Below, piece after piece: positions 10,024-12,698 of a stretch of 36,916 bases of DNA. The stretch spans positions 1 to 36,916 of the forward strand of contig JAGBBD010000009.1 in assembly GCA_017938625.1 (NCBI GenBank), in the 5' to 3' direction. The position numbers and the translations under genes are program-made. The notes beneath the pieces are model-generated. The model was not told the origin of the DNA, searched no databases, and saw nothing but the letters and a program-made list of their open reading frames with translations. Each line of letters opens with the position of its first letter. Positions within the stretch are counted from its first letter, which is position 1. The DNA is from Oscillospiraceae bacterium (GTDB lineage Bacteria > Bacillota > Clostridia > Oscillospirales > Oscillospiraceae).

Positions 10024-10059
10024 AAACCGGAAGTTTCTCCGTCGAGAAACTTCCGGTTT
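10024..10059. terminator. Bidirectional terminator between GNAT gene and dam
   Basis: A perfect 15-bp stem, arms 10024-10038 and 10045-10059, with a 6-base loop (CCGTCG). The A/T-rich stem ends give T-runs on both strands. It serves the rightward lysA-GNAT operon and the leftward adenine methyltransferase gene. Confidence 0.9.
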
Positions 10060-10063
10060 GTTG

Positions 10064-11170
10064 TCATTCAAACGGATAATTGGTCACGATCAGATGCTCC
10101 GCTGCGCGGTCGTTGCGGCTGCGGACGTTGTAGGTGTACTGCTTGTCAAAGCGCTTGATGTAGAAACCTTGGCTGTAAAGGCTTTCGATGTAGGGCGTGT
10201 TCTTGATGATCAGCAGGAATTTTGCCTTGGTCTTGCTCAGACACACGGCAAGTCTTGCCTGATCCAGCTTGGTGAAAGCCGTGCCCTCGTAGTCGGAAAA
10301 CTCCGTGTCATAGGGAGGATCGAGGAACATGAAATCATGCTCTGTAGGCTGGATCTGCGCCAAAAAGTCCTCAAAGTCCATGCAGCGGATATCCGTGCCG
10401 GCGAAGATCTTCTGCGTTTCTTCCCGGAACAGCGCGTCCACCTTGCCGGTAAAATCCTTTTTGTTGTAGCTCATGCCGCCGTAGGGAATGTTGAATTCAC
10501 CGTTTCGGTTGTAGCGGAACATGGAACCGTAGCAGGTCTCCCGGATAAAGAAGAAGTTGGCGGCGCGCAGCCCTGCAGGCAGGGTGATGCGCCCCAAATT
10601 CCAGTCGTTGTACACGCTGCGGAAATACAGGTAGTAACCGGAGGTCAGCCCTGTCACAAGGTTTTCTGCCAGATCCTCGGGAGAGAAAGGATTTTTGCGG
10701 TGATTTTCCCTTGTTCTGCACAGCTTGTCCAACAGGGAGTCTTCCAGTTCTTTTTGGAATTTGCCTTCATCAAGCACGATGGGGTAAGAGAACATGGCAA
10801 GGATCTCCGGCATCCAGACCTCCATAAGAAGCTGCAGGGAATCTGCCGCATCTTCCTTGTTGGGCAGCAAACTCCACACATCCAGCAGCTCTGTCACATG
10901 AAGTCTGCCGTATTCCAGAATGCCGCGGAAGCTTTCTGCGTAGGAGTAAAGAGCCTGTCTGAACTGCTCGTCCTGTACCTGCACCAGATGGTAAAATTCC
11001 ATCAGATCGCCTGCTGTGTCATTGATGGCAGCACGCTCCGGACTCAGATGGAAGAACAATGCGCCGCCGCCGAAGAAGGGCTCAATATAGCGGTCGTAGT
11101 CGGGGATCATACCATAGACCTGTGCGATCTCTTTGGCTTTTCCGCCGGGCCATTTCAGAAGAGGTTTCAT
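10064..11170 (-). CDS. dam: D12-class DNA adenine N6-methyltransferase (Dam/DpnM type)
   Basis: Transfers methyl from SAM to adenine N6 in DNA. The 368-residue protein has the alpha-class (D12) motif order: KWPGGK at residues 6-11 (motif X), FFGGG at 32-36 (motif I), the RYNRNGEFNIPYG segment at 219-231, DPPY at 284-287 (catalytic motif IV), and a C-terminal EHLIVTNY. It is about 90 residues longer than typical Dam because of an extended target-recognition region (about 70-180). ATG 11170 has AGGA upstream; the open frame continues 20 codons further without support. No restriction endonuclease is next to it, so it looks like an orphan methylase. GATC specificity is plausible from the family but not shown. 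Confidence 0.92.
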   Translation of the reverse strand: MKPLLKWPGGKAKEIAQVYGMIPDYDRYIEPFFGGGALFFHLSPERAAINDTAGDLMEFYHLVQVQDEQFRQALYSYAESFRGILEYGRLHVTELLDVWSLLPNKEDAADSLQLLMEVWMPEILAMFSYPIVLDEGKFQKELEDSLLDKLCRTRENHRKNPFSPEDLAENLVTGLTSGYYLYFRSVYNDWNLGRITLPAGLRAANFFFIRETCYGSMFRYNRNGEFNIPYGGMSYNKKDFTGKVDALFREETQKIFAGTDIRCMDFEDFLAQIQPTEHDFMFLDPPYDTEFSDYEGTAFTKLDQARLAVCLSKTKAKFLLIIKNTPYIESLYSQGFYIKRFDKQYTYNVRSRNDRAAEHLIVTNYPFE

Positions 11171-11201
11171 AACCGTTCCTGCTTTCTCGTTTAGTGATAC
11201 C

Positions 11202-11230
11202 ATTATAGCAGAATATCTTTTTACTTGCAA
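11202..11230 (-). promoter_or_regulatory. Leftward promoter of dam sharing a -35 with the divergent gene
   Basis: Minus strand TTGCAA (11225-11230), 17-base spacer and TATAAT (11202-11207). TTGCAA is its own reverse complement and is also the -35 of the rightward promoter. Confidence 0.8.
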
Positions 11231-11253
11231 GAAATGTCGAAAATTGGTATACT
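11225..11253 (+). promoter_or_regulatory. Rightward promoter for the E2-like membrane protein, predicted leaderless
   Basis: TTGCAA (11225-11230), 17-base spacer and TATACT (11248-11253). The expected start point, seven bases after the -10, is the A of the ATG at 11260. A Spo0A-box-like TGTCGAA (11235-11241) lies between the two hexamers. Confidence 0.7.
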
Positions 11254-11259
11254 GACCCT

Positions 11260-12663
11260 ATGGAAAAGAGAACAACTTATTTTGTCAGCCGTAAAAATGT
11301 GCTGACATGGCTGGCAGCTCTTTTGATGATCGGCTCGGCAGGACTCCGCATCGCATATTTCTGCGGGAAAGGCGCAGATGCAACGACGGTGTGGCTTCAA
11401 ATCGTCCTTCCGGCAGCAGCAGGTCTGATCTTTGCGCTGCAGATCCTTCTGGATGGAAAAGAGCATTTTTACCGCACGGCGACCCCTGTGTTTTTGATGG
11501 CAGTTTATTTTGTCGTTGTGGTCGTGGCAACGGAAATGCTCAAACGGTATGTGTTTGTCAATATTCTGGTGTTTCTGGCATTTTATATTTTCTATCGCCA
11601 GATCACATCCGGACGCTGGTCCGGGCCGTGGCTTCTGACAGTACTCTTTGCAGGTGCTGCGGCAGTGTATGGTTACTATCATCTTGATACTCTGCGTCAG
11701 TGGCAGCTTCATAGGATGGCAGATACCGCCATGCTTCTCGGCTGCTTCGTGGTGAGTCTTGCCGTGCGGCCTCATGCGGACGGTGTCTATCATCCCACCT
11801 GGGGTGATCGCTCCGATGGCAGACTGGTCAGAACGCTGCCCGGAATGTCCAAGATCGAGCCTTACATCATGACCACCAGAAACACCTCCTGCAACACCAT
11901 CCATGATGAGCTGGAGATCACCAACATTGAAAAGTATGTGCGCGAAAAGCGCAAAGAGGGTCTGACTCACTTCGGCATCAACCATGTGTTCATCGCCGCC
12001 TATGTGCGCTGCGTCAGCCAGTATCCGGCAGTCAACCGCTTTGTGTCCGGTCAGAAGGTCTACAGCCGTGGTGATGAGATCCAGTACTGCATGACCATCA
12101 AGCGGGAAATGACCACGGAGTCTCCCGATACCTGTATCAAGCTGCATCTCAAGCCTACCGATACGGTCTATGAGGTCTATGAAAAAATGGAAGCGGCTGT
12201 CCGCGAGGTCAAGGATGCCGAGGATCTGGACAACGGCTTTGAAAGCCTTGTTTCCGCATTGGCAAGCCTGCCCGGTCTGTTCCTTGCCTTTGTTGTGGTC
12301 GTTCTGCGGACGCTGGACTACTTTGGCTTGCTGCCCGGCTTCCTGCTGGAGCTGAGCCCCTTCCATGGCTCTGTGTTCTTCACCTCCATGGGCTCTCTTG
12401 GTATCCCTGCCATCATCCATCATCTGTATGACTTTGGCAATCTGCCTGTGTTTATCGCCTTTGGCTGCAAGTATCGCCGCAACGAGGTGGCGAATGACGG
12501 CACGGTGGAGCATAAAAAGTATGTGGATATGGGCTTTACGCTGGATGAACGTATTTGCGACGGCTTCTACTATGCCGCTGTCCTCAAATATCTGAGAAGA
12601 CTTCTTGCTCATCCCGAGCGTCTGGATACGCCCCCCGAAACTGTGGTAAAAGACATTCCGTAA
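11260..12663 (+). CDS. Membrane protein fused to a 2-oxoacid dehydrogenase E2-like acyltransferase domain
   Basis: 467 residues. Six hydrophobic segments at about 13-32, 43-64, 74-93, 97-113, 122-141 and 154-169 form an N-terminal membrane domain. Residues 185-455 resemble the CAT/E2 acyltransferase fold: HFGINHVFIAAYVRCVSQYP (residues 237-256) matches the helix before the substrate channel, TSMGSLGI (375-382) the usual SNLG region, and LDERICDG (428-435) the DHRxxDG active site. At that site E430 replaces the catalytic histidine. There is no lipoyl domain and no E1 or E3 gene nearby. Another hydrophobic stretch (339-365) sits in the CAT-like part. No ribosome site precedes ATG 11260. I infer a non-classical acyltransferase or a binding protein; its true substrate is unknown. 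Confidence 0.75.
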   Translation: MEKRTTYFVSRKNVLTWLAALLMIGSAGLRIAYFCGKGADATTVWLQIVLPAAAGLIFALQILLDGKEHFYRTATPVFLMAVYFVVVVVATEMLKRYVFVNILVFLAFYIFYRQITSGRWSGPWLLTVLFAGAAAVYGYYHLDTLRQWQLHRMADTAMLLGCFVVSLAVRPHADGVYHPTWGDRSDGRLVRTLPGMSKIEPYIMTTRNTSCNTIHDELEITNIEKYVREKRKEGLTHFGINHVFIAAYVRCVSQYPAVNRFVSGQKVYSRGDEIQYCMTIKREMTTESPDTCIKLHLKPTDTVYEVYEKMEAAVREVKDAEDLDNGFESLVSALASLPGLFLAFVVVVLRTLDYFGLLPGFLLELSPFHGSVFFTSMGSLGIPAIIHHLYDFGNLPVFIAFGCKYRRNEVANDGTVEHKKYVDMGFTLDERICDGFYYAAVLKYLRRLLAHPERLDTPPETVVKDIP

Positions 12664-12665
12664 AC

Positions 12666-12698
12666 AAAAAGTTCCTCACTTCAAGTGAGGAACTTTTT
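12666..12698. terminator. Bidirectional terminator between convergent genes
   Basis: Arms 12666-12680 and 12684-12698 form a 15-bp stem with a 3-base loop, with A5 and T5 at the ends giving T-tracts in both directions. It separates the E2-like gene from argS. Confidence 0.9.

Follow-up and report, generated by a model that had tools for sequence, protein, structure and literature searches.

The closest described systems are the bidirectional promoters with a shared -10 element reported by Warman, Grainger and colleagues (PMC12825309, PMC10268837). The symmetry of these promoters allows RNA polymerase to bind in either orientation, one orientation excluding the other, and some of them lie between divergent genes. 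Their divergent starts are 7-25 bp apart (PMC10268837), and separate divergent promoters are not counted as bidirectional (PMC12825309). The locus described here, which lies between two divergent genes, resembles them in its symmetry and in the exclusive binding predicted from it. However, here it is the -35 element that is likely shared, while the two -10 elements are separate, which places the locus outside the definition in PMC12825309. Moreover, the predicted starts, at 11195 (minus strand) and 11260 (plus strand), are 65 bp apart, well beyond the 7-25 bp of PMC10268837. We found no published shared palindromic -35 in the literature searched, a weak negative because the string “-35” is not searchable. 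As far as our searches reach, this is a real, recurrent divergent-promoter layout that is new as a variant.

The window, i.e., the whole stretch of 36,916 nucleotides that was analysed, is contig C66 of a 2.25-Mb, 71% complete genome (G000). We compared it with seven congeners, giving eight genus genomes in all. The relevant features of the window are:

11225-11230, no strand: TTGCAA, the palindromic -35 hexamer likely common to both promoters
11202-11207, minus strand: -10 element TATAAT of the dam promoter, with an extended TG at 11210-11209 and a spacer of 17; sequence TGCTATAAT
11248-11253, plus strand: -10 element TATACT of the promoter of the E2-like gene, with an extended TG at 11245-11246 and a spacer of 17; sequence TGGTATACT
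11195, minus strand: predicted +1 of the dam mRNA, placed by its spacing from the -10, giving a 25-nt leader with AGGA at 11180-11177
11260, plus strand: predicted +1 of the E2-like mRNA, the A of the ATG (leaderless), placed by the six bases from -10 to ATG
10064-11170, minus strand: dam family adenine-N6 DNA methyltransferase gene, 368 aa (PF02086, E 2.1e-37; TIGR00571, 159 bits)
11260-12663, plus strand: E2-like gene, 467 aa (PF00198 in the C-terminal part, E 6.4e-8; hydrophobic N-terminal half)
10024-10059, minus strand: terminator-like hairpin directly 3' of dam
12666-12698, plus strand: terminator-like hairpin directly 3' of the E2-like gene

Given a hairpin after each gene, dam and the E2-like gene each look like a single-gene unit. 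The assignment of the methyltransferase to the Dam family rests on a TIGR00571 score above the cutoff of 114.85 bits. Enzymes of this family methylate GATC, which is the predicted target here. The C terminus of the E2-like protein resembles the 2-oxoacid dehydrogenase E2 (CAT-like) acyltransferase domain, and the hydrophobic character of its N-terminal half was judged by eye. Searched against PDB profiles, this protein matched E2 at an E-value of only 0.0037, and an NCBIfam search gave zero matches. Neither Pfam nor NCBIfam identified a transcription regulator among the two divergent genes. Methylation by Dam of its own promoter was set aside because GATC was not found nearby: there is none in or near the shared promoter, the only one being at -99 in G000, and it is absent in the other three species that have dam next to the E2-like gene.

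The palindrome at 11225-11230 and the two -10 elements at 17 bp on either side of it had been predicted originally, and are correct to the base. The two promoters match the sigma-A/sigma-70 consensus at 10/12 and 9/12 positions, each with an extended TG, and their 17-bp spacers fall within the usual 16-18 bp between -35 and -10 in both directions. Searching the window for exact TTGCAA-17-TATAMT yields two matches, which are exactly these two promoters. Singly, neither promoter stands out, as the window contains 7 promoter-like sites compared with 2.9 in shuffles, and 7 loose promoter matches compared with 3.4. The excess over chance is the double arrangement, not either promoter alone. Of all hexamers, TTGCAA alone reads TTG from either strand, and it is therefore the necessary sequence of any TTG-type -35 that is shared in full.

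The explanation that we consider probable is that TTGCAA is the true -35 of two divergent sigma-A promoters that bind polymerase exclusively, dam being transcribed with a leader and the E2-like gene without one. What we observed directly is the sequence with its spacing, its conservation and its recurrence, whereas the start sites, the exclusion, the expression levels and translation without a leader are predicted from it. Conservation supports the shared -35, which had been part of the original prediction. Four of the eight genus genomes (G000, G002, G004 and G005) have the dam and E2-like genes side by side in divergent orientation, and TTGCAA has 17 bp on both sides in three of these four species (G000, G002 and G005). 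This set of four is our only conservation set that is unbiased by selection for intact hexamers. The dam-side spacers of G000 and G005 agree at only 7 of 17 positions, and the length of 17 is nevertheless kept. For sites collected by pattern searches, which select intact hexamers, hexamer identities are biased. Comparison with relatives had been proposed as a check on the original prediction, and its outcome is favorable in these three species but not in G004. The latter has the same gene pair with a separate dam promoter, TTGGAA-17-TATAAT, whose -10 is 40 bp from TTGCAA. In a tree of E2-like proteins, G004 groups with G000 and G002 with support of 89/90, which is below the mark for firm support, and the dam tree does not settle the placement of G004 and G005, so that the trees favor neither gain nor loss of sharing. 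Between the shared promoter and dam, G005 carries a palindromic repeat (G005:C67:9615-9696), of which we counted, on both strands, 94 matches in G005, 14 in G004, 10 in G000 and 1 in G002.

An alternative is that TTGCAA serves only the promoter of the E2-like gene, and that dam is transcribed from an extended -10 on its own, whose distance of 17 bp from TTGCAA is fortuitous. Promoters with an extended -10 may dispense with a -35, so the dam promoter, whose extended -10 is perfect, may hardly use TTGCAA. All 91 promoters that we located at E2-like genes across the family have TTG at the -35 position, irrespective of dam. A minus-strand -10 (at least 5/6 matching) at 16-18 from this -35 occurs in only three of the 91, namely those of G000, G002 and G005. 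TTGCAA itself is also found at the E2-like promoter of G004, G006 and G007 without a minus-strand -10 that uses it, and the E2 promoter alone can therefore explain why TTGCAA is maintained. The remaining four genus members have dam at another place, away from the E2-like gene, and the three unlinked copies that we read have an ordinary TTGGCA-17-TATAAT promoter and a leader with a Shine-Dalgarno sequence, i.e., their -35 is TTGGCA. Against this explanation, the distance of exactly 17 bp is kept in G005 despite the diverged spacer, and the 17/17 arrangement is strongly over-represented in the family, as detailed below. We regard the coincidence as unlikely.

Of 250 family genomes, 16 contain the motif AKTATA-17-TTGCAA-17-TATAMT, and the genus has 6 such sites, in four of its eight genomes. 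The same motif read backward occurs in none of either set; this control is blind to divergent promoters in general, which a grid of spacer lengths partly covers. When both spacers were left free between 13 and 21, 83 of 400 genomes matched, compared with one backward match in each of four genomes. Among the 75 sites in the listed part of these matches, 17/17 is most frequent (25 sites), even though it is one ordered cell of the grid and other pairs are two; it is followed by 16/17 and 17/18 (11 each). The remaining partners of a 17-bp spacer among these 75 sites are 13 (7 sites), 14 (1), 15 (5), 19 (6), 20 (4) and 21 (0). Grouped by eye, the 25 listed 17/17 sites represent about 15 loci.

At 8 of 21 loci of the 17/17 type in the family or genus, candidate starts preceded by a Shine-Dalgarno sequence lie within 100 nt on both sides, for example in G038/G129, G112/G226 and G107/G173. 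In the remaining 13, our crude rules do not make such genes evident on both sides, and some show a clear start on a single side only. To judge from the look of their sequences, the pair in G038 and G129 may encode two YbaK-type deacylases and the pair in G112 and G226 MobA and RecG, and endonuclease III may be paired with an AAA ATPase in G107 and G173 and with an exonuclease in G027, G123 and G235. The genome of the window has a second shared TTGCAA site, with 16/17 spacing (G000:C32:5750-5800), that resembles by eye a 17/17 site of G002 (C145:3471-3522). A clade-wide preference for TTGC at -35 was evaluated by counting TTGC at extended -10 promoters, with mixed results in small samples: 4/17 in G110, 4/24 in G000 and 2/27 in the flanks of the named loci introduced below.

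The same core lies between divergent genes in viral contigs. We found at least 120 stretches with the 17/17 TTGCAA pattern, which collapse to 51 clusters, compared with 3 for a control with ATGCAT at the center and 6 for a control with 13/13 spacing. The viral data do not show a preference for full sharing over other compact -35 layouts, because an interleaved layout (TTGNCAA) and an adjacent one (CAA-N4-TTG) also occur at least 120 times each; an abutting layout (CAATTG) occurs 19 times. Among cluster representatives, the shared layout has the largest share with ORFs led by Shine-Dalgarno sequences on both sides (24/51). The numbers are 12/73 for the interleaved layout and 9/50 for the one with a 4-bp gap (from a cluster set for which 119 of 120 stretches were read), and such ORFs were found for neither the abutting layout (0/11) nor the controls (0/3 and 0/6). 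In the other 27 of the 51 clusters, such two-sided genes are not evident by our crude rules. Some viral contigs carry genes that look chromosomal.

A small RHH-like gene adjoins the shared core in 64 of the 120 listed stretches (loci L241-L360), as counted with a profile that we built from six proteins that it later counted, and 62 of these 64 have an ORF opposite. Pfam detected RHH domains above cutoff in three of the four fragments of RHH candidates tried. Among the partner genes tried, one full-length protein scored above cutoff against the models for NUMOD3 and for GIY-YIG endonuclease (SegE-type), as did one fragment against the helix-turn-helix of OrfB/IS605 (OrfB/TnpB-type); a zinc-ribbon-like fragment stayed under its cutoff. 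These viral pairs have the same AKTATA-17-TTGCAA-17-TATAMT core as the window locus. They differ from it in that one member is predicted to be an RHH protein that binds DNA, which neither gene of the window locus is.

Under the shared -35 explanation, a polymerase facing dam would cover the same six base pairs that are needed for one facing the E2-like gene, so that only one could bind at each moment. According to PMC12825309, sigma domain 4 is captured by a -35 hexamer that remains duplex. This implies that two polymerases cannot use one hexamer together. Competition for the single -35 is thus likely. How much it would matter depends on occupancy. According to the same paper, five shared -10 promoters of E. 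coli had basal activity too low for competition, and substantial competition, or divergent repression, arose once one direction was strongly transcribed. Without activation, both genes would probably be transcribed independently at modest rates, and exclusion would be a side effect unless one side became strongly occupied. Mutual exclusion, as originally predicted, therefore follows from the geometry of one hexamer, although the analogues in PMC12825309 suggest that it has little effect at basal levels.

The original prediction went further and proposed a built-in switch between the methylase and the membrane protein. In such a switch, supercoiling or an unseen activator would favor one side and shut the other, giving reciprocal expression of the two genes. 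The geometry does force exclusion, and the divergent repression under strong one-way transcription in PMC12825309 provides a precedent. The 64 viral stretches with an RHH-like gene are also suggestive, as reciprocal control would be sensible beside partners of the GIY-YIG and OrfB/TnpB types. However, neither dam nor the E2-like gene is a known regulator by Pfam or NCBIfam, and the competition at basal levels is negligible in PMC12825309. Moreover, the two genes are not linked in four of the genus members, and G004 has two separate promoters. A repressor-controlled switch, in which one of the divergent genes encodes the regulator, likewise does not describe a locus that consists of dam and an acyltransferase-like membrane protein. 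A switch at this locus is therefore not supported, and we consider it improbable.

A third idea is that TTGCAA serves not as a -35 element but as the palindromic operator of a dimeric regulator. This is highly implausible: CTTGCAAG is indeed an 8-bp palindrome in several species and RHH-like genes adjoin many viral copies, but outside the genus the palindrome decays (to TTGCCA, TTGCGA, TTGTCA and others) while the TTG at -35 stays in 91/91.

Returning to the shared -35, we tentatively suggest a broader possibility. Fully shared palindromic -35s (TTGCAA, 17/17) might be a distinct, recurrent class of divergent promoter in bacteria and phages, a counterpart of the shared -10 class, in which one site for sigma region 4 arbitrates two genes. 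A phage RHH protein bound there could silence both its partner and itself, and in the window copy, a DNA methylase would be coupled with the leaderless gene of a membrane enzyme. The layout occurs on chromosomes, between genes, as well as in viral contigs, where it lies next to RHH-like genes. Since sharing the -35 leaves both -10 elements and both spacers independent, polymerase competition could be tested cleanly with one hexamer.

The two transcripts are expected to differ at their 5' ends. The dam transcript would have an ordinary 25-nt leader with the Shine-Dalgarno-like AGGA. The original prediction overlooked that the plus-strand promoter abuts the ATG: there are six bases from the end of TATACT to the ATG at 11260, which puts the canonical +1 on the A of this ATG, and no Shine-Dalgarno sequence lies upstream. 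The E2-like mRNA should therefore be leaderless; its transcript would begin at AUG and be translated without a leader.

Leaderless starts were previously estimated at about 2-3% (PMC9045289) or 4% (PMC5171806) in clostridia, where the ribosome-binding site is generally retained (PMC5171806), and in Firmicutes such genes occur mainly in Lactobacillales and Mycoplasma (PMC3160421). The E2-like gene resembles the clostridial leaderless mRNAs of the first two reports in having a 5' end, here predicted, no more than about 3 nt from the start codon, and in belonging to a rare class. It differs from them in that one gene family lacks the Shine-Dalgarno sequence and keeps the same layout across 13 genera of the genomes compared.

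This layout was evaluated at 106 orthologous loci, consisting of 39 loci from family genomes and 80 named loci, minus 13 duplicates. The 39 comprise the genus members and full-length matches, out of 179 matching genomes, and the 80 are the best of 581 relatives and lean toward close relatives. The named-record matches are mostly from Oscillospiraceae or Clostridia. A contig search with the single protein returned no relative, while an alignment used as query found relatives. A search across the order, covering 394 genomes, yielded matches at E <= 1e-115 in 7, none of them outside the family.

A promoter -10 lies 6-10 nt before the ATG at 91 of the 106 loci, the distance being 6 at 24 loci, 7 at 16, 8 at 7, 9 at 43 and 10 at 1. 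The Shine-Dalgarno sequence is missing in 89 of these 91. Conversely, 13 of the other 15 loci have a Shine-Dalgarno sequence and no promoter at this position, and two have neither. The base at the seventh position after the -10 is a purine in 74 loci, and the eighth is in the other 17, so that predicted leaders are 0-3 nt long. In the 9-nt class (43 loci, mostly within L118-L191), the triplet before the ATG is GTT, GCT or GTC in 42, which suggests a fixed 3-nt leader.

A stricter rule for leaderless starts is satisfied by 83 of the 91 loci, as compared with 5 of 635 control ORFs; two of these five are themselves E2 orthologues, leaving three that are not. The strict pattern has 24 matches in the eight genus genomes, of which eight are the E2-like gene, one per genome. 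The other 16 comprise 9 open frames of at most 55 aa and 7 of at least 165 aa, and each of the latter has a later candidate start with a Shine-Dalgarno-like sequence. The next most common gene with this pattern is one orthologous pair in two of the eight genomes (G003 and G007), again with such a later start. We rejected leaderlessness as a genome-wide property: there is no clear peak at 6 in the distance from -10 to start in 174 kb of G000, 200 kb of G110 or the window. A candidate start preceded by a Shine-Dalgarno sequence was present in 187 of 293 sampled gene-like ORFs. A leaderless start kept over many genera amid genomes that use Shine-Dalgarno sequences would allow clostridial leaderless translation to be tested on one gene. 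Elsewhere in the window's genome, two more ORFs on contig C63 of G000 (308 and 260 aa; L055-L063) have a promoter 7-8 nt before the ATG and lack a Shine-Dalgarno sequence.
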